From Neotamlana sedimentorum (lineage in GTDB: Bacteria > Bacteroidota > Bacteroidia > Flavobacteriales > Flavobacteriaceae), in NCBI RefSeq assembly GCF_000943565.1, contig NZ_JTDW01000001.1:372001-436000 (forward strand): 64,000 bases of DNA, given 5' to 3'. Both the position numbers and the translations under genes were made by a program. Of this stretch, positions 23,351 through 44,964 are shown one piece after another (within the stretch, counting starts at the first letter, position 1; every line of letters begins with the position of its first letter). Below the pieces are notes generated by a model. The model was given only the letters and a program-made list of their open reading frames with translations. It searched no databases and was not told where the DNA came from.

Positions 23351-24559
23351 TCAAAAATTGATTACACTATCCAAAGCATCATCTGCATCTTTATTAATAA
23401 AATTAGCTTGATAGTTTATAGTTGTAGTTACAGAGGAGTGCCTATAAAGTTTTTGAAGCATTTGAATTGGGATTTTATCACCTGAAATATTACCAAAACT
23501 ATGTCTTGCAATGTGCATACTCATTTTTTTGGTTATGTCCAGTTTGGAAGCAACTTTTTTCAAATGTCTATTTAGGTTTCGCGTTATGGTCTGTGTTCGT
23601 ATAGAAACCCTTTGAGAATCTTTCAGATCTGTATCCTTAAGATAATCGAAAATCAAATCATTATCCAGAGAATAGTTCTGTTGATAAATTTTAATTATTT
23701 CGCTAGCCTTTTCAGGTATTTTGAGTGTAACCAATTTACTGTTTTTGTTCATCCGGTACATTAATCTTCCATCATTAAAATCAGACCATTTCAATTTTAA
23801 GACATCACCAACCCTGATACCTGCAAAATAAAAGCTAATGAGCCAGACGTGAACTGCTTTTTGTTGAGCATCGGTTAAGTCTGTAGCATTCTCTAATTTT
23901 TTAATTTCTTTTTGATTCAGTCCAATCTTTTGTGATTCTGGAATTTTAATCTGGACTTTCCCTTTCCCAAAAGGATATCTCCCTCTGTCAACTAAAGATT
24001 CAGATATGGCAAGATTGTAAATAGTTCGTATTAAGATGAGATAATTTACCACTGTTCTTGGCGAACGTTTTTTATTATGAAGCAAATAGGTTTCAAATTT
24101 TTTGAGAAGTAAAACACTGAGTTCATTAAACAATAACTCATTTTTTTTGAGAAAACTCTTGAACTTTTTAAGGCGGCCAAGCTCAGTATCGTACTGATGA
24201 TGTTTTTCTCTGTTTTTGAGATTTTCAAGATGCATATTTGCAACTGCAAAAAAATCAACTTTTTTATTTTGCATAATATTTTTCTTGATCGCTTTGACTG
24301 TTTGATAGTCCGAATTGTTTTCAGCTTCCAGAACTTTTTTATTTGCCTCAGCGATTTAGGAAAGTATAAAATTATTAATGATGTTGGCATTGGGATGCGA
24401 TTTTCTAACGCATCTATTTTTCTCATCCCAGTACTTTTCTTCAATATGTTGACCAGTTCCTAAATAAGAACTTTTTCTATCCTTTGTAATTCTTATAGAT
24501 ATTGGATAATGTCCTTCTGGATTCCTTTTTTTTCGGAGTACTGCCTTAACTGTTGCCAT
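23351..24559 (-). pseudogene. Tyrosine recombinase (integrase) with an in-frame premature stop
   Basis: The frame from the ATG at 24559 to the stop at 23351 spans 402 codons, the normal size for Bacteroidota site-specific integrases. It is interrupted only by a TAA at 24356-24358 (FILS, stop, IAEANKKV). One base change from a sense codon explains it, since both halves share the same frame. Parts visible are an N-terminal arm-binding domain (MATVKAVLRKKRNPEG), a SAM-like core-binding domain and a catalytic domain. The catalytic residues are an Arg in AGIRVGDVLKLKW, HIARHSFG (H-x-x-R), and LYRHSSVTTTINY (His and Tyr nucleophile). An internal ATG at 24274 could restart translation, giving a 307-residue protein without the arm domain. 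Confidence 0.9.
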
Positions 24560-24593
24560 ATTGAATGCTTTAGATTATAAAGGTAATAAAAAC

Positions 24594-24626
24594 AGGTACA
24601 ACATAGGTACAACATAGGTACAACAT
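24594..24626 (+). repeat. Three perfect tandem 11-bp repeats next to the integrase, candidate arm sites
   Basis: AGGTACAACAT occurs at 24594-24604, 24605-24615 and 24616-24626 without spacers. The array lies 35 bp upstream of the integrase start and about 105 bp from the tRNA fragment. Integrase arm domains bind short direct repeats in this position, so these are plausible arm-type sites. An 11-bp period puts all copies on nearly the same helix face. Confidence 0.6.
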
Positions 24627-24731
24627 TTTATGCTTTTAATTGATATTAATTGACATTGAATACTATTATGTTTTTATTAAATCATTGAATATCAGTGTAA
24701 TTGTGTTTTCTTAATACCATACGGAAAAACA

Positions 24732-24775
24732 CTCATAACCCGAAGGTCACTGGTTCGAGTCCAGTTCCCGCTACT
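24732..24775 (+). other. 3' part of a tRNA-Met(CAT) gene, candidate attachment site
   Basis: The sequence from CTCATAA (anticodon CAT at 24734-24736) continues through a perfect T-arm, ACTGG-TTCGAGT-CCAGT (24749-24765), and the 3' acceptor strand TCCCGCT. The matching 5' acceptor (AGCGGGA) and D-arm are absent from the preceding 100 bases, so this is not a functional tRNA. A tRNA 3' end next to an integrase gene is the standard mark of an element end (att). Because the tRNA reads rightward, the element would lie to its left, with the intact tRNA at the far left end outside this window. Confidence 0.78.
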
Positions 24776-24780
24776 AAGTG

Positions 24781-24810
24781 AGAGTAATCAGAAATGGTTA
24801 CTCTTTTTTT
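24781..24810 (+). terminator. Rho-independent terminator after the tRNA fragment
   Basis: AGAGTAA (24781-24787) pairs with TTACTCT (24798-24804) and is followed by T residues to 24810. It is probably the original terminator of the tRNA transcription unit. Confidence 0.6.
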
Positions 24811-25054: not shown

Positions 25055-25083
25055 TATATTTGGTACACCAAACTGGTGCGCCA
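25055..25083 (+). promoter_or_regulatory. Promoter -7 box and paired operator before the alginate lyase operon
   Basis: A Bacteroidota-type -7 element TATATTTG (25055-25062) overlaps the first of two palindromic boxes, TGGTACACCA (25061-25070) and TGGTGCGCCA (25074-25083), whose starts are 13 bp apart. The same boxes recur before susC (30595-30630) and before the FadR-type regulator (35556-35565). Overlap with the -7 box suggests repression by that regulator. Confidence 0.65.
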
Positions 25084-25146
25084 ATTTAGTTTGAAATAAA
25101 TTTGTAAATTATCGTACCGTTATTAATCATAAATGAATTAAAGACA

Positions 25147-26211
25147 ATGGGTTTTAATGTTTTTTTACGTGCTTTAAAGTTAGGCTTTATTCTAAGTTTA
25201 TTAATTCTTTTCTCAGATTGTAAAAATTCTGAGAAAAGAATTCATTTGAAGTTAAAAGAAAAAATGGATCTTGAGACCACCTATCCAAGCGATGTAATTC
25301 CTTTTATGGATAAATGGAAGATTTTTCTTGGCGATGGCACAAAGTCTGATTCGTTAATAAATTTTGATAAAGAAGATTTTTTCTATGTAGAAAATGATGG
25401 AAAAACAAACTGGGTAGTTTATAAAACACCTAATTCTGGTATAACATCTAGAACTTCAAGTAATACAAGAACTGAATTAGGAGAGAAAAAACATTGGATT
25501 CCTGAAACAGGCGGAAAGTTAACAGGAACTTTAAAGGTTATGCATGTATCAACATCTGGTGATGCTCGAGTAGCAGCTTCTTACTCGGTAGTTGTTGGTC
25601 AAATTCATAGCGATGAAGGGCATGAAAACGAACCATTAAAAATATTTTATAAAAAGTTTCCAGGGCATAAAAAAGGTTCGGTTTACTGGAACTACGAAAT
25701 TAATACAGATGGCGATAATTCTAAACGTTGGGATTTTTCTACAGCGGTATGGGGTAACGATATGTCTGTTGTCGGAGAAACACCAGATACCTATCCAGAG
25801 GAACCAGAAGAAGGTATTGAATTAGGAGAAACTTTTAGTTACGAGGTAAATGTTCATGAAGGTATAATGTATTTAACTTTTACAAGCGAAGGACATGAAA
25901 CGGTTAAGTTTACAAAGAATTTATTAAAATCAGATTTTTCAACAAAAGCCGATATACCAGAACAAATTTTAACCTTATATGCTCCAATAGATCGTGATGG
26001 TATTGAACGCGATTCGGCTTATGCAGGAGAAATTCAATATTTTAAACAAGGGGCTTACAATCAAACCAATGGAAAAGATCCAGAGAAAAATATAGTTTGG
26101 AGTACAGGCTCTGAAACCTATGGCGGCGATATCGCAAAACAATATGAAAACGGTTGTTATGCCGAAGTTTGGTTTAGCAATGCCACAGTTGGACCAGGTG
26201 TTGCACCTTAA
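25147..26211 (+). CDS. PL7 family alginate lyase, probable lipoprotein
   Basis: 354 residues with a hydrophobic leader ending FSDC, a probable lipoprotein cleavage site. The PL7 jelly-roll is supported by SRTSSNTRTELGE (the conserved R-T-E-L strand holding the substrate), VVVGQIHSDEG (the Q-I-H motif carrying catalytic Gln and His) and GEIQYFKQGAYNQTNG near the C-terminus (YFKxGxYNQ, with the catalytic Tyr). PL7 enzymes cleave alginate by beta-elimination, producing unsaturated oligouronates. It is first in the operon with a kinase, transporter and PL6 lyase, under a promoter with the shared operator. A surface or periplasmic location is inferred from the lipobox. Confidence 0.93.
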   Translation: MGFNVFLRALKLGFILSLLILFSDCKNSEKRIHLKLKEKMDLETTYPSDVIPFMDKWKIFLGDGTKSDSLINFDKEDFFYVENDGKTNWVVYKTPNSGITSRTSSNTRTELGEKKHWIPETGGKLTGTLKVMHVSTSGDARVAASYSVVVGQIHSDEGHENEPLKIFYKKFPGHKKGSVYWNYEINTDGDNSKRWDFSTAVWGNDMSVVGETPDTYPEEPEEGIELGETFSYEVNVHEGIMYLTFTSEGHETVKFTKNLLKSDFSTKADIPEQILTLYAPIDRDGIERDSAYAGEIQYFKQGAYNQTNGKDPEKNIVWSTGSETYGGDIAKQYENGCYAEVWFSNATVGPGVAP

Positions 26212-26222
26212 TAAATATAGTT

Positions 26223-26708
26223 ATGAATACTGTGTTTTATGTTATGGGCGTGTCCGGTTCAGGAAAAAGTACTGTAGGTAAATTAATTGCAGAATCTTTG
26301 GAGATTCCATTTTTTGATGGTGACGATTTTCACCCTAAAGAAAATATTGTTAAAATGAGTAACGGTATGCCTTTAAATGATGAAGACCGTCAAGGCTGGT
26401 TATTAAATTTAAATGATTTAGCCATAAATCAATTAAAACAAAACAGCTGTGTTATTGTTTGTTCGGCCTTAAAAGAAAAATACCGAGAATTATTAAGTGC
26501 AACTATTGAAACGCATGTAAAATGGATTCATTTGGTGGGTTCGTACCACCAAATTTTAAATCGAATGAATAAACGAGAAAATCATTTTATGTCGTCTAAC
26601 ATGCTTCAGTCCCAATTCGACACTTTAGAAGCGCCCCAATACGCCATAAATGTAGATATTAATTTAAAGCCAAACGAGATTATAAAACATATCATTAAAC
26701 ACATTTGA
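26223..26708 (+). CDS. Gluconokinase-family (GntK-like) sugar-acid kinase
   Basis: 161 residues, cytoplasmic, the normal length of the family. It has a Walker A motif GVSGSGKSTVG near the start, the family substrate segment DGDDFHPKENIVKMSNG, DEDRQGWL, and CSALKEKYRE. GntK phosphorylates D-gluconate. Alginate catabolism needs phosphorylation of 2-keto-3-deoxygluconate, normally by a PfkB-type KDG kinase that is absent from this window. The position 11 bp after the PL7 gene suggests a role in the same pathway, so a shifted substrate is possible. This is an inference from context; the sequence itself says gluconokinase family. Confidence 0.85.
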   Translation: MNTVFYVMGVSGSGKSTVGKLIAESLEIPFFDGDDFHPKENIVKMSNGMPLNDEDRQGWLLNLNDLAINQLKQNSCVIVCSALKEKYRELLSATIETHVKWIHLVGSYHQILNRMNKRENHFMSSNMLQSQFDTLEAPQYAINVDINLKPNEIIKHIIKHI

Positions 26709-26797
26709 AATAAATTTTAAGCCATCATATATAAGTCACCACCTTATTTCGGCTTTAAAATTTAAAAAAAACAACCAACAAACTAAATAAGTATAAC

Positions 26798-28075
26798 ATG
26801 TCCGAAACTGTTCAAAAAAAATCACTTTTAAAAAAAATAATCGCCCTTGTACTTAGTTTTGGTCCAGGTATTTTTGCAATAGGTTACACCATAGGAACCG
26901 GAAGTGTAACAGCAATGATAGTAGCAGGAAGTAAGTACAATATGCAGTTACTTTGGGTGCTATTATTAAGTTGTATTTTCTCTGGAATTTTAATGTTTGT
27001 GTATGGTAATTATGCTTTACTTACTGGCGAAACCGCGCTTTTTGGTTTTAAAAAGCATTTAAAGTATGGCAAAGCTTTAGCGATATTAATTATTGTAGGT
27101 ATTACATTTGGGCAATGGAATTCTTTAATGGGAATTTTAGGGATTTCATCCAACATAATTTACGAAATATTAGCTTTAAATTATCAAGGATTAGAAGGTT
27201 TAAAATACGAAACGGTTTTAATTACCGCCATTATAATTATCGTTGTTTTTTATTTACTAATGTTGGTCGGTAAGTACACCTTTTTCGAAAAAATACTAGT
27301 TATTTTTGTAACTTTAATGGGGCTGTCATTTGTGTTGTCTTTATGTTTAGTACAACCATTACCGTTAGATGTAGTTAAAGGTATATTGCCTTCTATACCA
27401 AATGTGCCCGATGGTAAAATGTTGGTAGCGGCATTTGTAGGAACAACAATGGCAGCGGCTACATTTTTATCACGCCCGTTATTTGTTAAGGGGAAAGGGT
27501 GGACAATAAACAATTTAAAAGATCAGAAAAAAGATTCTATTACTGCTGCTATTTTAATATTTGTAATTAGTGGCACTATTATGGCCGTAGCTGCAGGCGC
27601 ACTATTTTATCAAGGTAAAGAAGTAACTCATGTATTAGATATGGCAAATACCTTGGAGCCAGTTGCAGGAAAATGGGCGGTTACTATTTTCTTTTTTGGG
27701 GCACTAAGTGCTGGATTGTCGTCTATATTTCCATGTTTATTAATAGCACCTTTACTTGTTGCCGATTACCAATCTGGTGAGCTTGATACCAATTCAAAAC
27801 AATTTAAAATAATAACAGCAATAGCATGTTTAGTGGCTTTAATTGGGCCTGCATTTGGTGCTAATCCTATTGAAATTCAAATTCTATCACAGGTTTTTAA
27901 TGTATTTATTTTGCCATTGGTAGTTTTGGGTATTATTCTGCTTGTTAATAATAAAAAGGTGATGAAAGGGTATAAAACATCAGTGTTTATAAACATATGT
28001 TTATTTGCAGCTTTATTTTTCTCTTGCTTAGTGTCTTACACAGGTGTAGTTGGAATTTTAACTAAATATTTTTAA
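26798..28075 (+). CDS. NRAMP-fold membrane transporter lacking the canonical metal motif
   Basis: 425 residues with about 11 membrane helices. The start FGPGIFAIGYTIGTGS resembles the first NRAMP helix, but the metal-binding D-P-G-N is not present: the equivalent stretch reads TIGTGS. The helix-6 M-P-H motif is also missing (FVGTTMAAATFLSRP there). NRAMP proteins carry divalent metals with protons. Loss of both ligand motifs suggests another substrate or mechanism. Its place between a sugar-acid kinase and PL6 in an alginate operon makes uptake of a sugar-acid or lyase product a reasonable hypothesis. It ends 8 bp before the PL6 start. Confidence 0.75.
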   Translation: MSETVQKKSLLKKIIALVLSFGPGIFAIGYTIGTGSVTAMIVAGSKYNMQLLWVLLLSCIFSGILMFVYGNYALLTGETALFGFKKHLKYGKALAILIIVGITFGQWNSLMGILGISSNIIYEILALNYQGLEGLKYETVLITAIIIIVVFYLLMLVGKYTFFEKILVIFVTLMGLSFVLSLCLVQPLPLDVVKGILPSIPNVPDGKMLVAAFVGTTMAAATFLSRPLFVKGKGWTINNLKDQKKDSITAAILIFVISGTIMAVAAGALFYQGKEVTHVLDMANTLEPVAGKWAVTIFFFGALSAGLSSIFPCLLIAPLLVADYQSGELDTNSKQFKIITAIACLVALIGPAFGANPIEIQILSQVFNVFILPLVVLGIILLVNNKKVMKGYKTSVFINICLFAALFFSCLVSYTGVVGILTKYF

Positions 28076-28083
28076 AAAACTAG

Positions 28084-30432
28084 ATGAAAACTAAACTAAA
28101 TTTTTCGATTTTAATGTTCGCTTTGTTTGTTTTAATGTCCTGCGATAAAAAGGTTGGTAAAGCAAATTCCAATGCATTATTGGTTAAAGATGTAACTGAA
28201 TTTAACACAGCTGTAAAAAATGCCAATCCTGGAGATACAATAACTTTGGTTAATGGTGTTTGGAAAGATGTAGAACTAGTATTTGAAGGTAAAGGAACAA
28301 AAGAAAAACCTATTACTTTAACAGTGGAAACGAAGGGAGAAGTTACCTTAGAAGGAAATTCAAACTTACAACTTGCAGGCGAATATTTAATTGTAGATGG
28401 TTTGGTGTTTAAAAACGGATATACACCCACAAACGCTGTGATTTCTTTAAGAAAAAGCCGAGAGGAAATAGCAAACAACAGCCGATTAACAAATTGTGTT
28501 ATCGATAATTATAATAATCCAGAACGCCAAGTACAAGATTATTGGATTACTATTTATGGTAAAAATAATCGAATAGACCATAATCATATTGTCGGTAAGA
28601 AAAACTTAGGTGTAACCATGATAGTTGGTTTAGATACTGAGGAAAGCAGAGCGAATCATCATAGAATAGATCATAATTATTTTGGTCCAAGACCAACTTA
28701 TGGAAACAACGGAGGCGAAACTTTAAGAATTGGTACGAGTCATCATGCTCTTGAAAATTCTAATACACTAGTAGAATCTAATTATTTTGATAGAACCAAT
28801 GGCGAGCATGAAATTATTTCAAATAAAGCTTGCCAAAACACCTTTAAATATAATACTTTTTTTGAGTGTACAGGAACTTTAACCATGCGTCACGGAAACG
28901 AAACTTTAGTAGATGGTAACGTCTTTATTGGTAACGGAAAACCAAGCACAGGTGGTGTTCGTTTAATAAACGAATCCCAAACCGTTATAAATAACTATCA
29001 TATTGGATTAACAGGCTACCGTTTTAGAGGCGCTTTTGTAATGATGAATGGCGTGCCTAATTCGCCACCAAACCGTTATGTTCCGGTAATCAATTCTAAA
29101 GTTAATAATAACACATTTATAAACTGCGACCACATTCAATTATGTGCAGGTAGCGATGCCGAACGAAGCACTGCTCCAAAAACATCAGAAATTTCTAATA
29201 ATATTTTTTATCACGAATCTAAGTCCGATTTGTTTACCGTTTACGATGTCATAAGTGGAATAACCTTTAAAAATAATATTCTAGGAAATAATTTAAAACG
29301 ACTTTTAAAAGACGGATTTACTAATACTGAAATCACTTTAGTAAAAAACGATCAAGGGTTTTTAATACCAACATCCAATGCTATAAAACCTATTTCAATA
29401 AGTCCTAAAATTGCAACAAAAGAAAATACAGGAGTTTCATGGTATTCAAAAGATGATGAGGATGTTGCGTTAAATTCGGGAAGTATAATTAAGGTTAAAC
29501 CCGGCATTAATACCTTATACGATATTGTCAAAACATCTAAACCTGGTGATATTATAGCATTAGAAGAAGGCGGAGAGTATTTAATCACTAAAGCTGTCGC
29601 AGTAAATCATCCCTTAACTTTTAAAACCATAGGCGAGAAAAAAGCAACAGTTTTGTTTGAACGTATGATGGCTTTCCAAATTCAAAATGGAGGAAGTTTA
29701 GAATTAGAAAACGTGTCGTTCGACGGTTCAAAATCACCCGACTATGCCGGTAATTCGGTAATATGTACCAGTAAAAACTCCATGATTGAAAATTATAAGC
29801 TTTTTATAAATAATTGTGAGTTTAAAGATATGGTTGTAAATCACTCGTTCGATGTGCTTCGTGTTTCAAAAGGCACCTTTGCCGATACTATAAGCATTCA
29901 AAATTCAATCTTTAAAAATATTTCAGGTCATATCGCTGCTTTAGATAAAGAAACTGATGATATTGGTGCATATAACGTAGAGTATTTTATAATGAAAAAC
30001 AATATAATTACAGATTTACAAGGAACTGCTTTAAGGTTGTATAGAGGTGGTAAAGATGAAAGTACATTTGGTCCTTTTCTTGAAGTAAACCACAATGTAT
30101 TTAATAATGTAGGTTTTGGTAAAAAGAATAAATACGAAGCAGCAATGTCACTTTATGGTGTGCAAGTAAATACCATAGAAAACAATATTTTTAATAATAC
30201 TAAGGCTTTAAATATGCATTTAGTGGTTGGCGAACCTATTGTAAATTTGTTTAATAATAATTTTTATAATTCCGAAGAACTTATTGTAACTGGCGACCAA
30301 GCTTATGTTGAAAAAAATACTTGGAATTATAATCCAAAGTTCGTAGAAAATACTTTTAAATTAAGTAAAACATCGCCTTTAACAGGAAAAGCGACTGATG
30401 GTTTTAATTTAGGTATTTTGGAAAATGAGTAG
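28084..30432 (+). CDS. PL6 family alginate lyase, lipoprotein
   Basis: 782 residues with a lipobox leader (FVLMSCDKK). It contains two parallel beta-helix domains (about 30-430 and 470-782), the two-domain architecture of AlyGC-like PL6 enzymes. The active-site region is visible: NGGETLRIGTS, NGEHEIISNKACQNTF (with the catalytic Lys) and TLTMRHGNETLVDGN (with the catalytic Arg). PL6 members cleave alginate, often at G- or MG-blocks. Together with PL7 it probably completes extracellular or periplasmic depolymerisation. It is last in the operon; a strong terminator follows at 30458-30499. Confidence 0.94.
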   Translation: MKTKLNFSILMFALFVLMSCDKKVGKANSNALLVKDVTEFNTAVKNANPGDTITLVNGVWKDVELVFEGKGTKEKPITLTVETKGEVTLEGNSNLQLAGEYLIVDGLVFKNGYTPTNAVISLRKSREEIANNSRLTNCVIDNYNNPERQVQDYWITIYGKNNRIDHNHIVGKKNLGVTMIVGLDTEESRANHHRIDHNYFGPRPTYGNNGGETLRIGTSHHALENSNTLVESNYFDRTNGEHEIISNKACQNTFKYNTFFECTGTLTMRHGNETLVDGNVFIGNGKPSTGGVRLINESQTVINNYHIGLTGYRFRGAFVMMNGVPNSPPNRYVPVINSKVNNNTFINCDHIQLCAGSDAERSTAPKTSEISNNIFYHESKSDLFTVYDVISGITFKNNILGNNLKRLLKDGFTNTEITLVKNDQGFLIPTSNAIKPISISPKIATKENTGVSWYSKDDEDVALNSGSIIKVKPGINTLYDIVKTSKPGDIIALEEGGEYLITKAVAVNHPLTFKTIGEKKATVLFERMMAFQIQNGGSLELENVSFDGSKSPDYAGNSVICTSKNSMIENYKLFINNCEFKDMVVNHSFDVLRVSKGTFADTISIQNSIFKNISGHIAALDKETDDIGAYNVEYFIMKNNIITDLQGTALRLYRGGKDESTFGPFLEVNHNVFNNVGFGKKNKYEAAMSLYGVQVNTIENNIFNNTKALNMHLVVGEPIVNLFNNNFYNSEELIVTGDQAYVEKNTWNYNPKFVENTFKLSKTSPLTGKATDGFNLGILENE

Positions 30433-30457
30433 ATAAAATTTTAGTTTAGTAATAGTT

Positions 30458-30499
30458 AAAGCCCTAAAGGTTAATCTTTTGATTCTTTAGGGCTTTTTT
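30458..30499 (+). terminator. Rho-independent terminator after PL6
   Basis: AAAGCCCTAAAG (30458-30469) and CTTTAGGGCTTT (30485-30496) form a perfect 12-bp stem followed by T residues. It separates the lyase operon from the susCD operon. Confidence 0.85.
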
Positions 30500-30566
30500 A
30501 TATGTTGAAATTTAAGAAACTGAAAAACAATATGTTAAATGTATTCTATTTTTTTTATAAAAAGCT

Positions 30567-30630
30567 TTGATGATAAAATTTTATATCATATATTTGGTAC
30601 ACCAGTTTGGGGTACCAATTTGGAATACCA
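30567..30630 (+). promoter_or_regulatory. susC promoter with triple operator
   Basis: TTG (30567-30569), 19 bases, then TATATTTG (30589-30596) matches the Bacteroidota sigma consensus. Three palindromic boxes follow at exact 13-bp steps: TGGTACACCA (30595-30604), TGGGGTACCA (30608-30617) and TGGAATACCA (30621-30630). The first overlaps the -7 box. It is the densest site of the proposed alginate regulon. Confidence 0.72.
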
Positions 30631-30813
30631 GACAAAAACCTATAAAACTAAATTAAATATGAACATTATGAAAAGAACACATCTCTAAAATTCTTCATTG
30701 CAAACCAAAGTGTGCAAATCATAATTTAAAAGCATTTTTTACTCTTAAAAGGATGTCAGTAGGTAATAAAATCATAAGCCTATGACAGGTTATCTTATGC
30801 CTTTAAATTTAAA

Positions 30814-30837
30814 AATTGGTTAAAAAATTAACCAATT
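30814..30837 (+). promoter_or_regulatory. Perfect hairpin in the susC 5' leader
   Basis: AATTGGTTAA (30814-30823) and TTAACCAATT (30828-30837) form a 10-bp stem with a four-base loop, 35 bp before the susC ATG. The leader is long (about 235 bases after the promoter) and contains a 9-codon ORF starting at about 30660. A role in mRNA stability or translation control is possible. Confidence 0.4.
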
Positions 30838-30872
30838 AAAAAGTAAATACTAACAACTAAATAAATCATTAA

Positions 30873-33800
30873 ATGAAATTAAAAGTGAAACTAAGCTTAT
30901 GGCTACTTTTGATATTTAATATATCATTATTTGCCCAAGATGGATATCAAATATCCGGAGTTGTAAAAGATGAGTCAGGAATGCCAATTCCTGGTGTAAA
31001 TGTAATTGTAGAAAATACCACAAAAGGAACCGCAACCGATTTTGATGGCCAATTTCAATTAACGGTCTCAAACGGTGATATTTTGAAATTTTCATACCTC
31101 GGTTATATAGGTCAAAGCCTTAATATTACAGGGCAGAAATCAGTGGAAATTATATTAATAGAAGACACTAGTGCTTTAGAAGAAGTTGTTGTTGTTGGTT
31201 ATGGCGTTAGAAAAAAATCACATTTAACAGGAGCCATTGCTAAAATTGGTGGAGAAGATGTGGCGGCGGTTCAAGTAGCGCGAGTAGATGAAGCCTTGGC
31301 AGGTAAATTACCAGGGGTTTTAATACAAAATCAAAGTGGAGAACCTGGTGCCGATTTAAAAATACAAATTAGAGCAGCATCCTCTATATCTGGAGACTCT
31401 GGTCCTTTAATTGTTGTTGATGGATATCCTATTTCTGGCAATTTAGCAACAGTTAACCCGAACGACATAGAAAGCATGGAAGTTTTAAAAGATGCTGCAT
31501 CTGCTGCAATTTATGGGTCTAGAGGTGCCAATGGTGTTATTTTAGTTACAACCAAAAAAGGAAAAACAGGAAAACTTAATTTTAGCTATAATGCTTATAC
31601 AAGCACATCTAGCAAATATGTAAGAGATATCGAAATGTTAAAAACAGCTTCAGAGTGGGCGGCCGAAATACAAACTGATGCCTACGACCTTTCTGAAATA
31701 GATCCGGCACTACTAGCTTACAGATTAGATGCCTACGAAAATGCTCCAGACGTAGTTAGTGTAGAAGATTGGCTATTTAGAAATGGCAACTCAACCAGTC
31801 ATGATTTTAGCGTAAGTGGGGGTTCAGAAAATTTAAAAGGTTTTGCATCTCTAGGGTATTTAAAAACAGATGGGATTGTAAATGGTCAAGGTTTCGAGCG
31901 CGTAAATGCCCGAATGAATATTGATGCCAATTTAAACGATAAACTACAAGCTGGAATGAGTATAAATGGCTACTATGGTAATCAGGATATTGTGCCTTGG
32001 GATATGCGTGATCTTTTAAGAACTTATAGTATTAGCCCAATTTATCATACAGCAGAGTCTATTGCCTTTGTGCAAGAATTAGATTCTAAACGACAAGCCT
32101 TATACGAATCGGGTTTTACTGGGGCAAATGTTGATAGAAGCTTCGATCAAGATAGAAGAGGTATAGGTTTAGATCCTACAAGTATATACTTATTACAACC
32201 TGGTGATGTGGTACACGATTGGCATTATGGAAGAAATCAAAATGGTATTGGAGGTACAGGAGATGCGGGTGTAGGTGCAAAATTTGATAATTCAAGACGT
32301 TGGAAGAAAACATATTTTGCTAATATGAACTCTTATTTACAATACACCATTCTAGAAGGTTTAAATATTAAAACTGTTTTCGGATCAGATATTCAAGATA
32401 CTCAAGATTTTTACTATAGAGGTATTTTATCTGATGGACAGCAACGTTCTACACAAACAAACTTAGATATTTCTAACATTAAAAAATCTACCATTTTAAG
32501 CGAAACTACTTTAAATTATGCTAAAGTATTTAATGATAAGCACGATGTGTCTGCAGTAGTAGGTTTAGAGTTTCAAAACACATACTATAAAGGTATTGTA
32601 AACGATGGTACAAACGTTCCTTTTGGCTTACCATTAAATTATTCATTTTTTAACGCAGAAGATGTAGTTTCTTACGAAGTGGATGAGACACGATCAAGAA
32701 GAAGTATTTTTGGTAGAGTAAATTATGCTTTTGATGACAGGTATTTATTATCATTTTCATTAAGAAGAGATGGCGATTCTAGATTTGGTGCAAATAAAAA
32801 ATATGCAACATTTCCAGCATATTCAATTGGTTGGAACATGCATAAAGAAGCCTTTTTAGCCGATAGTAAAGTTATAAGTTTATTAAAACCTCGTTTTAGC
32901 ACAGGGTCATTAGGTACAGAATCTTTCCTTGGGTCGTACGATGCACTAAGTATATTAAGTACATCACAAACTGCTTTTGGTACAGGGTTTTTAATTCCAA
33001 ATAACGTTGCAAATCCAGACTTAACTTGGCAAACCAATAAAGAAACAAACTATGGTATAGACACCGGTTTTTTAAATAACCGTTTTAGGCTTAGTGTAGA
33101 TTATTATACTTCAGATATTGAAGATATGCTAATTAACCAAAGTGTATCAGAAGTTTTAGGAACGCCTTCAATTGTATTAAATCGAGGCGATGTAAAAAGC
33201 TCAGGACTTGAGTTTGAATTTAATGCAGGCATCATTCAAAAAGAGGATTTTAACTGGAGTATTAATGCTAACTTATCTACCGTAAAAACAGAAATTACAA
33301 GTTTAGGAGATTTAGATGCATTACCAACTCAAATTTATGGAGGACCAAGCGGAAGAGGGCCTGAGTTTAGAAACTACGTTGGTGGTGAAATAGGCGAAAT
33401 GTGGGGCTACCAAGTAACTGGCGAAGTAGAAACTATTCATATAGAAGATCCATCTCGAAACATAGGTTTTGGAAGTTCAGAATGGTATGTAGTAGATCAA
33501 AACGGAGATGGAGAAATAACTTACGAAGGCGATTACGTAAAATTAGGTTCAGCCAACCCAGATTTTTACTGGGGGTTATCAAGCTCAATGAATTATAAAA
33601 ATTTCGATTTTTCATTTCAATTTCAAGGATCACAAGGCGCAGAGGTTTATAACATAGATCCGTTATATTGGAAATCACAGTTTGGAGGAAGACTAAGAGC
33701 TAGCTTTGATGCCAATAACGATGGTATTGCAGATGCATCGGGTAAATTTTACGAAGAAACCAGAGATGCACACGGCTCAGGGATACAAGATGCATCGTAT

Positions 33801-34055
33801 ATAGCATTACGTAACTTAACTTTTGGGTATACTTTAAATCCAGATTTTGTAAATAAAGTAGGTATTGGTTCCATGAGAGTTTATGTAGCAGCATCCAATT
33901 TATTGTACATAATGGGAGATAATTATACATCTTACAACCCTGAAGGGGTAGAAACAGAAAACACAGGTTATGCAGGGCCAACTACCTACGGATATCAAGA
34001 AGGAGCTAGCCCAATTACTAGAAGTTTTACGTTTGGAGTTAATGTGAATTTTTAA
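30873..34055 (+). CDS. SusC-like TonB-dependent outer-membrane transporter (alginate locus)
   Basis: 1060 residues with a signal peptide ending SLFAQ. A carboxypeptidase-regulatory-like beta domain follows (about 25-100: ISGVVKDESGMPIPGVNVIVE), then the TonB box/SusC signature near VVVGYGVRKKS, a plug domain (LAGKLPGVLIQNQSGEPG...) and a 22-strand barrel ending FTFGVNVNF. No STN domain is present, so this receptor is not wired to a sigma/anti-sigma pair. It imports oligosaccharides together with the SusD lipoprotein 11 bp downstream. The setting between PL6 and a DEH-type reductase indicates alginate oligomers as cargo. Confidence 0.95.
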   Translation: MKLKVKLSLWLLLIFNISLFAQDGYQISGVVKDESGMPIPGVNVIVENTTKGTATDFDGQFQLTVSNGDILKFSYLGYIGQSLNITGQKSVEIILIEDTSALEEVVVVGYGVRKKSHLTGAIAKIGGEDVAAVQVARVDEALAGKLPGVLIQNQSGEPGADLKIQIRAASSISGDSGPLIVVDGYPISGNLATVNPNDIESMEVLKDAASAAIYGSRGANGVILVTTKKGKTGKLNFSYNAYTSTSSKYVRDIEMLKTASEWAAEIQTDAYDLSEIDPALLAYRLDAYENAPDVVSVEDWLFRNGNSTSHDFSVSGGSENLKGFASLGYLKTDGIVNGQGFERVNARMNIDANLNDKLQAGMSINGYYGNQDIVPWDMRDLLRTYSISPIYHTAESIAFVQELDSKRQALYESGFTGANVDRSFDQDRRGIGLDPTSIYLLQPGDVVHDWHYGRNQNGIGGTGDAGVGAKFDNSRRWKKTYFANMNSYLQYTILEGLNIKTVFGSDIQDTQDFYYRGILSDGQQRSTQTNLDISNIKKSTILSETTLNYAKVFNDKHDVSAVVGLEFQNTYYKGIVNDGTNVPFGLPLNYSFFNAEDVVSYEVDETRSRRSIFGRVNYAFDDRYLLSFSLRRDGDSRFGANKKYATFPAYSIGWNMHKEAFLADSKVISLLKPRFSTGSLGTESFLGSYDALSILSTSQTAFGTGFLIPNNVANPDLTWQTNKETNYGIDTGFLNNRFRLSVDYYTSDIEDMLINQSVSEVLGTPSIVLNRGDVKSSGLEFEFNAGIIQKEDFNWSINANLSTVKTEITSLGDLDALPTQIYGGPSGRGPEFRNYVGGEIGEMWGYQVTGEVETIHIEDPSRNIGFGSSEWYVVDQNGDGEITYEGDYVKLGSANPDFYWGLSSSMNYKNFDFSFQFQGSQGAEVYNIDPLYWKSQFGGRLRASFDANNDGIADASGKFYEETRDAHGSGIQDASYIALRNLTFGYTLNPDFVNKVGIGSMRVYVAASNLLYIMGDNYTSYNPEGVETENTGYAGPTTYGYQEGASPITRSFTFGVNVNF

Positions 34056-34066
34056 AAAACTTAATC

Positions 34067-35410
34067 ATGAAAAAAATAGAAATTATATATATATTATTGT
34101 TGTCTGTGTTCTTAGCAACATCTTGTGACAATGATTTAGATCAAATCCCGCCAAAAGATTTAGAATCTAGTGCTTTAACAGAATATGAGCCTGTGTTATT
34201 CGCAGCATATTATTATCAAACAGGAGCTTCTACACCTTTATTAATTATGGGAGACTTTAGAGCGGATAATATGCAAATGATTGAGGAACCTTATCCTGCC
34301 TTTGATAGATTTAATGCCGATTTAGCTGGTGGCGATTTAGTAGAGCAATTTTTCCGTCCTTTTTACAGCAATTTATACAAAGCCATTTTAAGTGCAAATA
34401 ATGTTATAGATAACTCTGCCGACGATACAGAAATATCTGAAGCTTACTTTTTAAGAGCATTATCTTATTTTAAATTAGTTACTGTATTTGGAGATGTTAC
34501 TATTAATTTATCTCCAACACCAAATACTTCAGATTTATCAATATTAGAAAGACAACCCGCAGACGATGTTTATAACAACATTATTATCCCAGATTTACAA
34601 GCTGCTATTTCAGGATTAACAAATTCAGAAATTAGTGAAGGTCGAGCCTCACAGTTAGCAGCACAAGCACTTCTGGGTAAAGTTTATATGTACAGAGGTA
34701 ATTACAATAGTGCAGCGCCATTGCTGGCTGGAGTTGTAAATAATGCTGGAGGAGTAGGAGTTACTCTAGAGCCGGATTTTGCAAATGTTGTAGTAGATGA
34801 AAATTCAGAAGTTATTTTCGCCACTAAATTTTCATCATCTATTTCAGATGCTTACAGTTTTGCCTCAGAATTTCCTATCTGGTTTTCTGGAGCCGATACA
34901 AAATCGCCATTACCACTAGATCCTGATTTAACAGCAGCTTTCGATGAAAGTAGTGCAAATGCTGGAGCAACAGATTTAAGAAAAGATTTAACTATTGATG
35001 AAGTTAATAATACAGGAATAAAATATACTGGAGCTCTAGAGCAAGATCATATAGAAATGAGGTTATCAGATTTCATTTTAATGCACGCCGAGGCCTTAAA
35101 CGAAACTACAAATGCAACAGGAGCACAATCAGCCACAATTTTAGCATTGTTAGACGATATTAGGTCTAGAGCAGGTTTACCAAGTTTAGTAGGTACAGCA
35201 ACTACTCAAGCCGAAGTAAGAACAGCTATAGCTAAAGAAAGACGCTTGGAGCTAGCATTAGAAGGTCACCGTTGGTTCGATTTGGTTAGAACGAATACGG
35301 TCGATGAAGAAATGGGAGAGGTAATCAATAGTAATTATTACATATTTCCAATTCCTACCTCCGAAATTACAGCAACTAATAGTGTGATTACTCAGAATCC
35401 AGGATATTAA
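34067..35410 (+). CDS. SusD-like glycan-binding lipoprotein (alginate locus)
   Basis: 447 residues with lipoprotein leader ending ATSCDND. It is a RagB/SusD family protein: the N-terminal part has tetratricopeptide-like helices (AYFLRALSYFKLVTVFGDV) and the C-terminal region carries the standard RAGLPSL, KERRLELALEGHRWFDLVR and final IPTSEITATN...QNPGY segments. It caps the SusC barrel at the cell surface and binds incoming oligosaccharide. It is somewhat short for the family. A strong terminator follows at 35454-35505. Confidence 0.95.
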   Translation: MKKIEIIYILLLSVFLATSCDNDLDQIPPKDLESSALTEYEPVLFAAYYYQTGASTPLLIMGDFRADNMQMIEEPYPAFDRFNADLAGGDLVEQFFRPFYSNLYKAILSANNVIDNSADDTEISEAYFLRALSYFKLVTVFGDVTINLSPTPNTSDLSILERQPADDVYNNIIIPDLQAAISGLTNSEISEGRASQLAAQALLGKVYMYRGNYNSAAPLLAGVVNNAGGVGVTLEPDFANVVVDENSEVIFATKFSSSISDAYSFASEFPIWFSGADTKSPLPLDPDLTAAFDESSANAGATDLRKDLTIDEVNNTGIKYTGALEQDHIEMRLSDFILMHAEALNETTNATGAQSATILALLDDIRSRAGLPSLVGTATTQAEVRTAIAKERRLELALEGHRWFDLVRTNTVDEEMGEVINSNYYIFPIPTSEITATNSVITQNPGY

Positions 35411-35453
35411 CAATTTACTTGAATAGGAGTATTTAAGTTAGTTTAGTTTTTTT

Positions 35454-35505
35454 AAAGGTTAGCCAACATCAGTAAAGATGTGGTATGTGTTGGTTAACCT
35501 TTTTT
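35454..35505 (+). terminator. Rho-independent terminator after susD
   Basis: AAAGGTTAGCCAACA (35454-35468) pairs with TGTTGGTTAACCTTT (35488-35502), with one mismatch in the middle, and a T run follows. It ends the susCD transcript. Confidence 0.8.
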
Positions 35506-35555
35506 AATTTTATTTTGGTAAGTAAAATTATTTAAATAGTTTTACCTAATAAAAC

Positions 35556-35565
35556 TGGCGTACCA
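35556..35565 (+). promoter_or_regulatory. Single operator box before the FadR-type regulator
   Basis: TGGCGTACCA matches the boxes at 25061 and 30595. It lies 13 bp upstream of the regulator's ATG (35579), a position suited to autorepression. Confidence 0.6.
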
Positions 35566-35578
35566 ATTTATTTTGCAA

Positions 35579-36316
35579 ATGAACATAGATATTCTCTCAA
35601 AAAATGAAAATCAAGAAATTACAACCAGAGTAAATAATATAATTTCTAAAATAAGTGATTTAATAAAAGAAAAACATTTACAACCTGGAGACAAACTTCC
35701 TGCAGAAAGAATTCTTGCAGAAAAGTTTGATGTAAGTCGGCGAAGTATACGTGTAGCTATTTTAAAACTAGAATCTTATGGTATTTTAAAAGCTATACCA
35801 CAAAGTGGAACCTTTATTGCAAATATTGGAACTATAGCCATGAATGGAATGATAGATGATATTTTAAATTTGGGTTTACCGGATTTTAAATCTTTAGTTG
35901 AAACTAGAATTTTATTAGAACTTAAAGCTGTAAGGCTAGCCGCATTAAGGCGTTCTGAGGAAGATTTACTAAGAATAAAAGAAGCTTTAACGGCTCATGA
36001 AAATAAACTTAAGTCTGGCGAAGATGCAGTTCAAGAAGATTTATTATTTCATTTAGCCATTGCCAAGGCAAGCGGAAATGTTACTATTAATCAAATCATG
36101 ATTGGTATAACGCCACAAATTATAGTCGATTTTAAAAAGTATCATAAAGATTATAATTCACTAGATGCGTTACGAATTATTGAACATGCTGAAATTTATG
36201 AAGCGATAAAATCAAAAAATCCACAACTGGCAAAAGAAAAAATGAAAGAGCATTTTAAGATGTTGTATCAATATTGCTATGATATTAAAAGCTTAAATAA
36301 AAATCAAAATACTTAA
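35579..36316 (+). CDS. GntR-family (FadR subfamily) transcriptional regulator
   Basis: About 245 residues from ATG 35579; a TTG six bases upstream is an alternative start but less likely. The N-terminal winged helix has the GntR signature LQPGDKLPAERILAEKFDVSRRSIRVAILKL split over about residues 28-58, then QSGTFI. The C-terminal FCD ligand domain contains the metal-binding pattern, with DLLFHLAIAKASGN and later HAEIYEAI and MKEHF. FadR-type regulators sense small carboxylates and usually release DNA when bound. Boxes before the lyase operon, susC and its own gene suggest that it represses the alginate locus until a uronate product appears. It is followed by the SDR gene 22 bp on. Confidence 0.92.
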   Translation: MNIDILSKNENQEITTRVNNIISKISDLIKEKHLQPGDKLPAERILAEKFDVSRRSIRVAILKLESYGILKAIPQSGTFIANIGTIAMNGMIDDILNLGLPDFKSLVETRILLELKAVRLAALRRSEEDLLRIKEALTAHENKLKSGEDAVQEDLLFHLAIAKASGNVTINQIMIGITPQIIVDFKKYHKDYNSLDALRIIEHAEIYEAIKSKNPQLAKEKMKEHFKMLYQYCYDIKSLNKNQNT

Positions 36317-36338: not shown

Positions 36339-37094
36339 ATGGGAAGATTAACAGGAAAAATAGCAGTAGTAACTGGGGGAGCGAGAGACATAGGTCGTTC
36401 AATTTGTGTAAAATTAGCAAAAGAAGGTGCCAAGGTAGTTGTAAACTATTTAAATAGTGAAAAGGATAGAGATGCAACATTAGAAGCTATTAAAGCTATA
36501 GGAGGAGAAGCCATTGCAGTTTATGGAGATGTTACAAAACAAACTGATATTGATGCCATGGTAGCTAAAACAAAAGAAGCTTTTGGAGATAAAATTGATA
36601 TTCTTGTTAATAATGCAGGTGGATTATTCGGCAGAAGAACAGCAGAAGAGCTAGATGAAGATTTTTACAACCTAGTAATGGGAGTTAATTTTAAAGGTGT
36701 TGTTTTTGTAACCCAAGCATTTAAAGCCATGATGGAAGAAGGCGCATCAATAGTAAATTTAGCTTCACAAGCTGGTCGAGATGGCGGCGGTGGCGGTTCT
36801 GTATTATATGCTGCATCAAAAGGTGCTATTATGACATTAACTCGTAACTGGGCTAAAGAGTTTGGCCCACAAGGTATTCGCATAAATGCAGTTTGCCCAG
36901 GTTTAATAGGAACTAAGTTTCACGACGATTTTACTCAAGATGAGGTTAGAGTAAAAGTAGCAGCATCAACTCCCTTAAGAAGAGAAGGACACCCAGATGA
37001 GGTGGCAGATTTGGTTGCTTATTTAGCCAGTGATGAAGCGTCATTTATAACAGGAAATAATGTAGATATTAATGGTGGTTTAGCATTTAGTTAA
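36339..37094 (+). CDS. Short-chain dehydrogenase/reductase, probable DEH reductase
   Basis: 251 residues, cytoplasmic, classical SDR. The nucleotide-binding motif is TGGARDIG, the structural motif NNAG, the catalytic Ser lies in NLASQAG, and Y-x-x-x-K reads YAASK. The end is GNNVDINGG. In alginate pathways an SDR reduces 4-deoxy-L-erythro-5-hexoseulose uronate (DEH) to 2-keto-3-deoxygluconate using NAD(P)H. That assignment rests on linkage to PL6, PL7 and susCD rather than on diagnostic residues. It is in an operon with the regulator and is followed by a terminator. Confidence 0.85.
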   Translation: MGRLTGKIAVVTGGARDIGRSICVKLAKEGAKVVVNYLNSEKDRDATLEAIKAIGGEAIAVYGDVTKQTDIDAMVAKTKEAFGDKIDILVNNAGGLFGRRTAEELDEDFYNLVMGVNFKGVVFVTQAFKAMMEEGASIVNLASQAGRDGGGGGSVLYAASKGAIMTLTRNWAKEFGPQGIRINAVCPGLIGTKFHDDFTQDEVRVKVAASTPLRREGHPDEVADLVAYLASDEASFITGNNVDINGGLAFS

Positions 37095-37260: not shown

Positions 37261-38178
37261 TTACACTATTAGTTTTAAGGTTTTATTTAATAACAGTTTG
37301 TCAATGAATATAGTCCATGTAATGTTATAATCTTTATTTGGTTCTAAAAGTTGTAAGCCTATTTGATTGTTAAAACTGTTAGAAACGCCTGTGGTAGGCT
37401 CAATCGCAATAGTATTAGGTGTTGGCGGGGTGTAAATCTGTAAAAAATTTTGTTCGGCGGTGCTGTTAAATTGTAGTTTGTAGGAAGGTGTTTTAAATAT
37501 AATTTCATCGGAATTTAAAATCCAACAATCATCTAACGTTTTATTTTTAATATTGAAATCAGTTTCAATAGCAGGTGTTACACCAGAGGTGATATTGCGA
37601 TCGTCCAGTTCAATTTTTTCTAAACTGTTAAACGAAATATTGCTTTGGTATAAATTTTTGCTTGAAAAATAAGGATGCCAACCTAAAGTAAACGGAAAAG
37701 TGTTGCTACTGGTATTTTTAATAGTTACGTTTAAACTTACTGTTGTACTTGTAAAAGTATAGGCAATAATAATATTATAAGTATAAGGAAAAGCCGGGTG
37801 TTTTTCGTTTTCAGAATAAAGAAGTACAATATTGGCTTCGTTTTCTGTAGCCTTTGTACTCACAACATTAAAGGTTTTATTAAAAACTAACCCGTGTAAT
37901 GCATTGTTATTTGCAGGTTCGTTAATGTCGAATTTATATGTTTTACCTTCAAATTTATATTCACCATCTTTAATTCGGTTAGCGAATGGAAATAAAATTG
38001 AAGAAGCATAGGTGTTTTTGTATTTAAGTGGTGCTAAATCCTTTATTATTTGGTTTGCGTTTAAGGTGAGTTCTTGTAGGCTTGCGCCATCTTTTAAATT
38101 TATTTTAGCACACAGTTTTTTATTAGAATGCTTTACTTCTAAAGTGTTTTGGGTTTTATTATGTGAAATTTGAAACAT
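37261..38178 (-). CDS. Aldose 1-epimerase family (GalM-like) protein
   Basis: 305 residues without signal peptide, so cytoplasmic. It is a mutarotase fold with FPFANRIKDGEYKFEGKTY, the His motif NNALHGLVFNKTF, and TLGWHPYFSSKN containing the second His. The catalytic Glu is likely in the IAIEPTTGVSNSFNN segment. It interconverts anomers of free aldoses and so speeds entry of released sugars into catabolism. Its ATG overlaps the stop codon of the upstream regulator by one base (TAATG), so the two are translationally coupled. That links the regulator's ligand to an aldose. Confidence 0.88.
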   Translation of the reverse strand: MFQISHNKTQNTLEVKHSNKKLCAKINLKDGASLQELTLNANQIIKDLAPLKYKNTYASSILFPFANRIKDGEYKFEGKTYKFDINEPANNNALHGLVFNKTFNVVSTKATENEANIVLLYSENEKHPAFPYTYNIIIAYTFTSTTVSLNVTIKNTSSNTFPFTLGWHPYFSSKNLYQSNISFNSLEKIELDDRNITSGVTPAIETDFNIKNKTLDDCWILNSDEIIFKTPSYKLQFNSTAEQNFLQIYTPPTPNTIAIEPTTGVSNSFNNQIGLQLLEPNKDYNITWTIFIDKLLLNKTLKLIV

Positions 38179-39170
38179 TATAAAGAGCTCCTTAAAATTA
38201 GTTGGTTTGGGTTTTCTATTTGTTTTTGCTCTTTATTTAAAATCATTTCGGCTAAACGTTTTCCCATTTCATTAAAATCTGTAGATATGGTAGTTATTCC
38301 TCCTTCTACGAGCTCTTTTAATAAAGTGTCGTTATACGAAATGATGCCAACATCTTTTGCAAGAGTGAGGTTATTCGATTTTAGTTTCTTTAAAATTCGT
38401 AATAAATTTTTATCGTCGGGAATAATGTACAATTCACCTTTTTCTGGCGTTTTTTCTAACAAGGTGGTTTCAATTGAATAATTAAAGTTGTGCGCTTCAC
38501 AAAAATTAGTGAAACCCTTAAGCATGCCTTCTGGCTGTTTAGATTTAGTGTTTACTAAAATAAAGTGGTTATATTTTGATAGTAGTGCTTTGGTTTCATT
38601 TAAATTATTAAAAATCGCTTTTTCAAAATTTTGATAGATAGACGGGTAACTAGACAAATCGTCGTGAAGCTGATCGAGGATATAAACCTTGTCGCTTGGT
38701 AAGTTTTTAATCTCCTTGTTGGTGTTGTTAAAATTTGCAGGCATAATCACGTAATAATTGTAATCGCCTTTGTTGTCTTTTATTAATTTCTTGAAAATCG
38801 ATCGGTTAAAGTGATGAAAATATATTTCAACTTCAATACTGTCATCGAGGTGCTTTAAAAAAGAGTTATATAAATCTTCTTTAAATGAATTAAGCTCATC
38901 AAACAATAAAAATATTTTTTGAGTTACAGTAACTTGATCACTAGAAACGTAATACCCTTTACCAACAACAGACTGTATAATACCTCTACTTTTTAGTTCA
39001 TTAAAGGCCATTAAAACGGTATCTCTTGAGAGTTTGTTGTCGTTTTTAATTTTGTTAATTGATGGTATTTGGTCACCTTTTTTTAGTGTGCCTGAAACTA
39101 TTAATGCTTCAATTGTATTAATAATTTGCTTGTATTTAGGCGTCCCTATTTTCTGTTTAATTTTAATCAT
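38178..39170 (-). CDS. GntR-type regulator with sugar-binding (LacI-like) domain
   Basis: About 330 residues from ATG 39170; an in-frame TTG at 39212 would extend it by 14 residues into the operator and is less likely. The N-terminal winged helix is GntR-type (LKKGDQIPSINKIKNDNKLSRDT and GKGYYV, about residues 30-75). The rest resembles a periplasmic-binding-protein fold with VGIISYNDTLLKELVEGGITTIS, as in LacI-family effector domains. This is the architecture of the Bacteroides fucose regulator FucR and AraR-type repressors, so a monosaccharide effector is expected. It is divergent from the sigma-factor operon. Near-palindromes sit in its own promoter (39211-39228 and 39281-39298) and before GH97 (48945-48962). 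Confidence 0.88.
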   Translation of the reverse strand: MIKIKQKIGTPKYKQIINTIEALIVSGTLKKGDQIPSINKIKNDNKLSRDTVLMAFNELKSRGIIQSVVGKGYYVSSDQVTVTQKIFLLFDELNSFKEDLYNSFLKHLDDSIEVEIYFHHFNRSIFKKLIKDNKGDYNYYVIMPANFNNTNKEIKNLPSDKVYILDQLHDDLSSYPSIYQNFEKAIFNNLNETKALLSKYNHFILVNTKSKQPEGMLKGFTNFCEAHNFNYSIETTLLEKTPEKGELYIIPDDKNLLRILKKLKSNNLTLAKDVGIISYNDTLLKELVEGGITTISTDFNEMGKRLAEMILNKEQKQIENPNQLILRSSL

Positions 39171-39210
39171 AACTGAGGTTGCAAATCTATAAAATATTTT
39201 CAACTTAACC

Positions 39211-39228
39211 AACTAGCCCCTACTAGTT
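39211..39228. promoter_or_regulatory. Operator 1 in the regulator promoter
   Basis: AACTAGCCCCTACTAGTT: the 6-bp ends are perfect inverted repeats (AACTAG / CTAGTT). It lies 41 bp upstream of the regulator's ATG. It differs by two bases from the site at 48945-48962. Confidence 0.65.
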
Positions 39229-39977: not shown

Positions 39978-40084
39978 AGCTAAAATAAAACTTTTTAAAA
40001 AAAGTTTAAATTCTTGTCACCCATTTTCATTGTTTAGAAGTTATATTAATATAAAATAGTTTAAAGTTAATATAGTATAGTTTC

Positions 40085-41284: not shown

Positions 41285-41460
41285 AATTTTAATTGCCTAT
41301 GACGTAATTAGTAAACAAATTAATTTCAATTAATTAATAACTATCTCCTTGGAATACGCAAACGTAGTCCCAAAAAAAACGGAAGATACTACCAATATCT
41401 CCCGAATTTTAAGCGTGTAGTTATTAAAGTAATTAACCACACTAAACCGACAACTAAATT

Positions 41461-44946: not shown

Positions 44947-44964
44947 TAATAAAAAACAAAAACA

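Follow-up and report, generated by a model that had tools for sequence, protein, structure and literature searches.

Putative 13-bp-phased operator arrays of an AusR-type alginate repressor in Neotamlana sedimentorum

AusR is a GntR-family repressor of the alginate system (PMC8286568, PMC8073546). As summarized in a paper citing the work of Dudek et al. (PMC7874173), AusR of Zobellia binds to operators that are present as single, double or triple copies and its complexes are inhibited by alginate intermediates, and graded operator copy number is in that form already published for AusR. Here we analyzed a 64,000-nucleotide stretch of Neotamlana sedimentorum (Flavobacteriaceae; contig NZ_JTDW01000001.1, positions 372,001 to 436,000), referred to throughout as the window. 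It holds an alginate polysaccharide utilization locus (PUL) with TGGNNNNCCA-type palindromic boxes before a polysaccharide lyase (PL) gene of family PL7, a susC-like gene and the gene of a GntR-type regulator with an FCD domain (ATG at 35579). We predict with high confidence that these boxes serve, in arrays, as operators for an alginate repressor of the AusR type (FCD/FadR-subfamily GntR).

The window regulator resembles AusR of Zobellia galactanivorans in being a GntR-family homologue encoded in an alginate PUL with PL and susCD genes as neighbors (59 to 62% identity to the homologues of the Zobellia loci L084, L085 and L090), and in having two, three and one putative operator copies at its promoters, in line with the single, double and triple copies reported in PMC7874173. 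It differs from AusR of Z. galactanivorans in belonging to a separate clade with an arginine at a base-contacting position of the recognition helix and with AC, GC or GT at the operator centre, and in sharing its genome with a second AusR-type paralogue.

The regulator combines a GntR winged helix with an FCD domain, as expected of the FadR subfamily. Sites of this subfamily follow TKGT-N2or3-ACMA, and in UxuR and some other members GT and AC are separated by 2 nucleotides (nt); the table of that study lists no FadR-subfamily regulators from Bacteroidetes (PMC4494728). The TGGTNNACCA-type boxes of the window match this palindrome (2/6 exactly, 4/6 with one mismatch), and the 35579 protein is predicted to bind them. 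UxuR-type sites are described with weaker extra half-sites 7 to 12 nt from the center (PMC4494728), whereas here full boxes recur at a fixed 13-bp step. The nearest worked mechanism is that of NanR of Escherichia coli, likewise an FCD-type GntR repressor, of which three dimers bind cooperatively to an operator with three repeats that lies downstream of the polymerase site (PMC8012715). The NanR repeats are direct GGTATA repeats (PMC8012715), unlike the palindromic units at 13 bp found here. The 32-residue N-terminal extension through which NanR dimers cooperate was not found in the window regulator, in which about 18 residues precede the GntR match (residue 21 of the TTG-started frame, 19 from the ATG) and residue 22 of the query aligns with NanR residue 37; cooperativity by another route is possible. 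None of the NCBIfam equivalogs LldR, PdhR, GlcC, UxuR and ExuR, nor the NanR subfamily, scored above its cutoff (best, LldR with 116.1 bits versus 311).

Subject to the content of the original AusR study (Dudek et al. 2020), the present analysis adds a slotted lattice and a matched change of operator and helix. That study apart, we found no report, at the level of titles and the opening lines of abstracts, of the 13-bp step, the anchoring on the -7 element, the slot difference or the classes of operator center.

Phased boxes and their co-occurrence with the regulator

The first-pass annotation had described six TGGNNNNCCA-type palindromes, two before PL7, three before susC at exact 13-bp steps and one before the regulator gene, with overlap of the -7 element at the first two promoters. 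All six are present in these numbers, the steps are exact, and box 1 overlaps the -7 element TATATTTG at both PL7 and susC (Table 1). The regulator box, the end of which lies 13 bp from the ATG, does not overlap its -7 element. In the window, single TGGNNNNCCA boxes exceeded expectation by a factor of only about two (20 versus 10.29 expected; at least 20 in 0/100 shuffles). The 13-bp pair was matched three times, compared to a mean of 0.00 in 100 shuffles, and so is not due to chance. A near match, TGGTTAACCT at 35491, sits inside what reads as a terminator-like hairpin 3' of susD.

The annotation had also presented the boxes as a set of three promoters. These promoters stand, but their arrays are part of a multilocus set. 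Searching the genome as it had suggested, we found the 13-bp pair 11 times in 3,955,127 bases (reversed control, 0). When TGGTNNNCCA was required first and the gap was left free between 0 and 30, the 13-bp step was again found at 11 places; one further place (C6, 64632) had 26 bp with a degenerate box in between, and five places on contigs C5, C7, C9 and C23 had five other gaps (reversed control, 3 matches). The arrays form eight clusters on contigs C1, C6, C19, C43 and C49, beside lyase or PUL genes. Neighbors on C6 are a gene 28% identical to the PL6-type lyase of C19, a PL17-type gene, PL7, SusC/SusD and two PKD proteins; those on C19 are PL6-type, SusC/SusD, SDR, MFS and PfkB kinase genes; C43 has a CBM6-PL7 gene; and C49 has an NRAMP-like gene and a DUF4962/heparinase-like gene, and presumably also serves alginate use. 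Two proteins of the genome have an FCD match, that of the window and one on C6; they are 64% identical, and both lie in alginate PULs.

Next, we looked into how the arrays and the regulator were distributed across 199 genomes sampled from the family, taking as close homologues the matches to a profile of the two regulators with an E value of ≤1e-70. The array pattern was present in 66 genomes and a close homologue in 50. All 50 genomes with a close homologue had the pattern, compared to 16/149 of the others (Fisher test, P value = 2.5e-33, which is nominal, as the genomes are related; the per-genome counts were typed from match tables). The 50 genomes held 234 pattern matches versus 4 for the reversed control. 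Beyond the family, 266 genomes sampled from the phylum gave 42 array matches in 39 genomes versus 39 control matches in 35 by hand count, which is background. The scheme is not phylum-wide, because the uronate regulators listed for Bacteroides thetaiotaomicron in PMC3878776 belong to the LacI family.

Anatomy was compared over homologue loci, of which 41 of 44 with named records were kept; they include Zobellia, Maribacter, Winogradskyella and Algibacter as well as metagenome-assembled genomes. Three distant Bacillota loci (L091 to L093), with 26 to 39% identity along their best-aligned segment, were excluded from every later count, and loci L020 to L049 and L094 to L109 were covered by their listed pattern matches. 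Within 80 bp, boxes were spaced by 13 bp 87 times, by 26 bp 27 times and by 27, 39, 40 and 68 bp once each; the reversed boxes (93 versus 341 forward) formed no pair within 80 bp in the 41 loci. Arrays of this kind are also present in Z. uliginosa, Z. russellii and Z. barbeyronii.

Promoter-anchored slots and copy number by gene class

We defined an array as strict boxes plus 13-bp neighbors that departed from the six fixed letters at no more than one position, and we named downstream genes by their best BLAST match among the proteins of the window's genome (E value of 1e-10). Single boxes in coding sequence had already been dropped. Arrays that fell within coding sequence or had no labeled gene within 450 bp were then removed, which left 98 from the homologue loci and the array loci of the window's genome. 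Copy number differed by gene class. The susC-like genes (n = 44) had 27 triple, 15 double, 1 quadruple and 1 single array, the last (L072, 4777) sharing its downstream gene with a triple array, while 24 of the 28 regulator arrays were single and 4 were double. Double arrays accounted for all four at PL7 and for six of seven at PL17 (the other was single), and PL6 (n = 6) had three triple, two double and one single. The remaining nine comprised KdgK (2 double), a type IX secretion tail protein (1 triple, 1 double), PKD proteins (1 double, 1 single) and NRAMP genes (1 double, 2 single). Chance may account for isolated single boxes.

Promoter elements were named on the basis of TAnnTTTG at -7 and TTTG at -33, which we take to be the consensus. 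Among the 64 target arrays with at least two boxes, 59 have TAnnTTT[AG] starting 6 nt upstream of box 1, so that the -7 element shares its TG with box 1. In 27 of the 28 regulator promoters its start lies 18 to 21 nt upstream of the last box (16 at 19, 8 at 20, 2 at 21 and 1 at 18), a position that corresponds to slot 2 of the same 13-bp lattice. The offsets in the window (6 at PL7, 6 at susC and 19 at the regulator) fit this family rule. The PL7 promoter reads TTTT, not TTTG, at its -33 position (25032). The annotation had proposed that graded copy number could set levels of repression; the numbers 2, 3 and 1 hold, and the proposal needs amending in that position differs too, with the regulator box in slot 2 and off the -7 element.

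It is plausible that copy number sets repression strength. Alternatively, occupancy of slot 1 over the -7 element could set repression, with extra boxes serving for cooperative loading only. Regulator promoters indeed differ from targets in slot as well as in number, and in the 31 triple arrays perfect TGGT/ACCA halves (left/right) were most frequent in slot 2 (0.90/0.94, compared to 0.58/0.90 in slot 1 and 0.52/0.68 in slot 3), a pattern that filling from slot 2 would be expected to leave. However, slot 2 is the best match in triple arrays only: in double arrays it had no such advantage (0.86/0.86 versus 0.83/0.97 in slot 1). The third box, moreover, is kept at many loci (susC, 27 triple versus 15 double). 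We treat slot-1 occupancy as a serious possibility that falls short of being probable. As the outer half-sites looked weak, an overall 36-bp palindrome of the triple arrays was also tried; it was dropped, since box 1 and the reverse complement of box 3 agreed in 2.19 of 4 central letters, barely more than the 2.0 for box 2.

Operator center and recognition helix

The window regulator, two congeners (L117 and L120) and Winogradskyella vidalii (L050) form a clade with 100/100 support. Their recognition helix reads VSRRSIR; at the second Arg, the other 44 rows of the alignment have S, G, N or T. This residue is position 39 of the helix-turn-helix (FadR Thr-46), for which PMC4494728 describes a base contact and a correlation with the central bases of FadR-subfamily sites; our residue register rests on the T-R-T-T-x-R pattern in Table 1 of that paper. 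Box centers changed with the helix. Centers of AC, GT or GC were found in 21/23 boxes beside the four-species clade and in 0/184 beside other AusRs, the boxes of which mostly have AA, TT or TA. One locus, L118, duplicates L061 (identical regulator) and was dropped from this final count, with both kept in the tree. One of the 23 clade boxes (CTAG, L120) may be due to chance. A further congener, L121, has homologous PL7, gluconokinase, NRAMP, PL6, SusC and SusD genes (58 to 78% identity; 59 to 70% for PL7, PL6, SusC and SusD) under a canonical regulator, and its boxes are canonical. The operator thus follows the regulator and not the target. Two AusR-type genes, the number found in the window's genome, are also present in one Zobellia locus, L084.

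These data bear on whether the two paralogues of the window's genome are kept apart. The alternative is that both bind both operator types, without insulation of the circuits. Both types have TGGT/ACCA halves in common, and before an NRAMP-like gene on C49 lies a hybrid array, TGGTAAACCA-AAT-TGGTGCACCA (L017:9354-9376), with one AA-center and one GC-center box; it recurs with identical sequence in a second species (L125:1501-1523) and stands outside the count of 184. This array is possibly a joint target of the two paralogues. The separation of centers between the window-type regulator of the four species and other AusRs speaks against shared binding, which we consider rather unlikely; the two repressors may instead be insulated.

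A further alternative, that the boxes are read by another neighboring regulator, such as the AraR-like protein at 38178-39212 or a similar protein beside the C19 arrays, has in its favor that such proteins have a GntR winged helix and lie nearby. Yet the arrays track the FCD homologue in 50/50 genomes, the box center changes with the FCD recognition helix, and AusR of Zobellia is itself reported to bind operator copies (PMC7874173). In addition, frames with a GntR helix and about 330 to 365 residues, AraR-like by length, are present in at least 10 array-free genomes (G005, G020, G029, G049, G072, G082, G083, G092, G117 and G196). We consider this alternative very improbable. That the repeats are leader RNA hairpins or chance palindromes can be dismissed: boxes 2 and 3 are probably transcribed, but RNA fold z-scores were -1.45, 0.11 and 1.06 with stems of 3 bp, and matches were zero in shuffles and in the reversed control.

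Several observations weigh against operator arrays read by an AusR-type repressor. The helix changed once on the tree, so the four species are not independent and the covariation extends over several promoters and not over many independent events. The hybrid C49 array has one box of each center type (AA and GC), and no FCD gene was found on C49. No box was assigned before the regulator in 15/43 homologue loci, two of which have a degenerate one at -20 or -22, nor before the first of the two regulators in L084. The 149 genomes without a close homologue hold 18 array matches versus 4 in the control, for example G154 (L020), a small excess. Five of the 64 target arrays have no -7 element at offset 6. 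Among regulator promoters, that of L088 has no -7 element at 18 to 21 nt or elsewhere, those of L069 and L076 carry an additional -7-like element, 6 nt upstream of the box, and that of L056 has a full slot-1 box, whereas slot 1 is degenerate in the other three two-box regulator promoters. Given the co-occurrence, the covariation of center and helix and the paper citing the AusR work (PMC7874173), a candidate repressor operator in two, three and one copies, read by the 35579 regulator as first proposed, remains the best reading.

Genes of the locus and proposed regulation

The boxes, promoter elements and genes of the alginate PUL are collected in Table 1.

Table 1. Boxes, promoter elements and genes of the alginate PUL (window coordinates)
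Feature	Positions	Strand	Sequence and basis
-7 element of PL7 operon promoter	25055..25062	+	TATATTTG; final TG is TG of box 1; sequence and offset rule
PL7 operon operator box 1 (slot 1), predicted	25061..25070	+	TGGTACACCA; sequence and shuffles
PL7 operon operator box 2 (slot 2), predicted	25074..25083	+	TGGTGCGCCA; sequence and shuffles
PL7-type alginate lyase (Alginate_lyase2)	25147..26211	+	PF08787, E 8.9e-52
GntK-type gluconokinase, between PL7 and PL6 genes	26223..26708	+	TIGR01313, 174.1 bits (cutoff 113.75)
NRAMP-fold transporter, next codirectional gene	26798..28075	+	PF01566; NF037982, 86.1 bits (cutoff 50)
PL6-type lyase (Chondroitinas_B), next codirectional gene	28084..30432	+	PF14592, E 5.1e-118; PL6 name inferred
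-33 TTTG of susC promoter, 19 nt before -7	30566..30569	+	sequence; same spacing in base counts across loci
-7 element of susC promoter	30589..30596	+	TATATTTG; sequence
susC operator box 1 (slot 1), predicted	30595..30604	+	TGGTACACCA; sequence and shuffles
susC operator box 2 (slot 2), predicted	30608..30617	+	TGGGGTACCA; sequence and shuffles
susC operator box 3 (slot 3), predicted	30621..30630	+	TGGAATACCA; sequence and shuffles
SusC-like TonB-dependent receptor	30873..34055	+	Plug, CarbopepD_reg_2
SusD-like protein	34067..35410	+	SusD_RagB
-33 TTTG of regulator promoter, 19 nt before -7	35514..35517	+	sequence
-7-like element of regulator promoter, start 19 nt before box start	35537..35544	+	TAGTTTTA; sequence and offsets
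Regulator's single operator box (slot 2), predicted	35556..35565	+	TGGCGTACCA; sequence and offset rule
FCD-type GntR regulator, AusR homologue, recognition helix VSRRSIR	35579..36316	+	PF00392, E 3.5e-17; PF07729, E 1.3e-23
SDR oxidoreductase, candidate 4-deoxy-L-erythro-5-hexoseulose uronate (DEH) reductase, codirectional with regulator	36339..37094	+	adh_short_C2; function inferred

NRAMP-fold transporter genes stand under alginate arrays both in the window and at L017:9409-10665, and an NRAMP homologue adjoins PL7/PL6 also in L117, L120 and L121. The canonical NRAMP motifs are DPGN and MPH; the window copy has YTIGTGS in place of the former and TMAAATF in place of the latter. Because these positions differ, the window protein may carry a nonmetal cargo, perhaps an alginate breakdown product.

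The surroundings of the PUL were also inspected. A phage-type integrase gene (23351-24274, minus strand) lies beside it, together with what looks by eye like the 3' end of a tRNA near 24735-24775 (ARAGORN found no complete tRNA), and three tandem 11-bp units, ggtacaacata, at 24595-24627, the last copy one base off; the alginate PUL may thus border an integrated element (23351-24790). On the other side, an AraR-like protein with a GntR winged helix and a periplasmic-binding-type domain (38178-39212) is encoded beside an aldose epimerase gene. A separate ECF (extracytoplasmic function) sigma/FecR/STN-SusC/SusD unit at 39447-46821, followed by a sulfatase gene at 47523, constitutes another PUL with a different type of control.

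We propose the following scheme, in which binding, cooperativity, repression strength, release and insulation are extrapolated from the arrays. Without inducer, dimers of the 35579 regulator would sit on the 10-bp palindromes of a 13-bp lattice, the register of which is set by the -7 element. This element would be covered by slot 1, with slots 2 and 3 following and covering the start region, so that access of the polymerase to the promoter would be blocked. Lyase and susC promoters would use slots 1-2 or 1-2-3, and the regulator's own promoter would use mainly slot 2. As its own -7 element would be left uncovered, the regulator would be expected to repress itself less strongly and to be supplied steadily. 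Alginate breakdown intermediates would release the repressor. In the window clade, the operator center (AC, GC or GT, compared to mostly AA, TT or TA) has changed along with the recognition helix, and the window PUL would be expected to be kept apart from the second AusR paralogue as a result. We are evenly divided on the full combination, namely, that a -7-locked slot code (the -7 slot plus one or two others at targets, mostly slot 2 at the self-promoter) and the clade's co-moved helix and operators would yield two separately addressed circuits, joined at the hybrid promoter.

If the rule holds, AusR regulons would be readable in Flavobacteriaceae from 13-bp paired boxes with a -7 element 6 nt before the first, and alginate-responsive genes outside PULs could be cataloged from sequence. 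That targets and the self-promoter differ in slot provides a testable design for graded repression. Moreover, with two operator classes and matching helices, the change of specificity between sister repressors would be directly testable.

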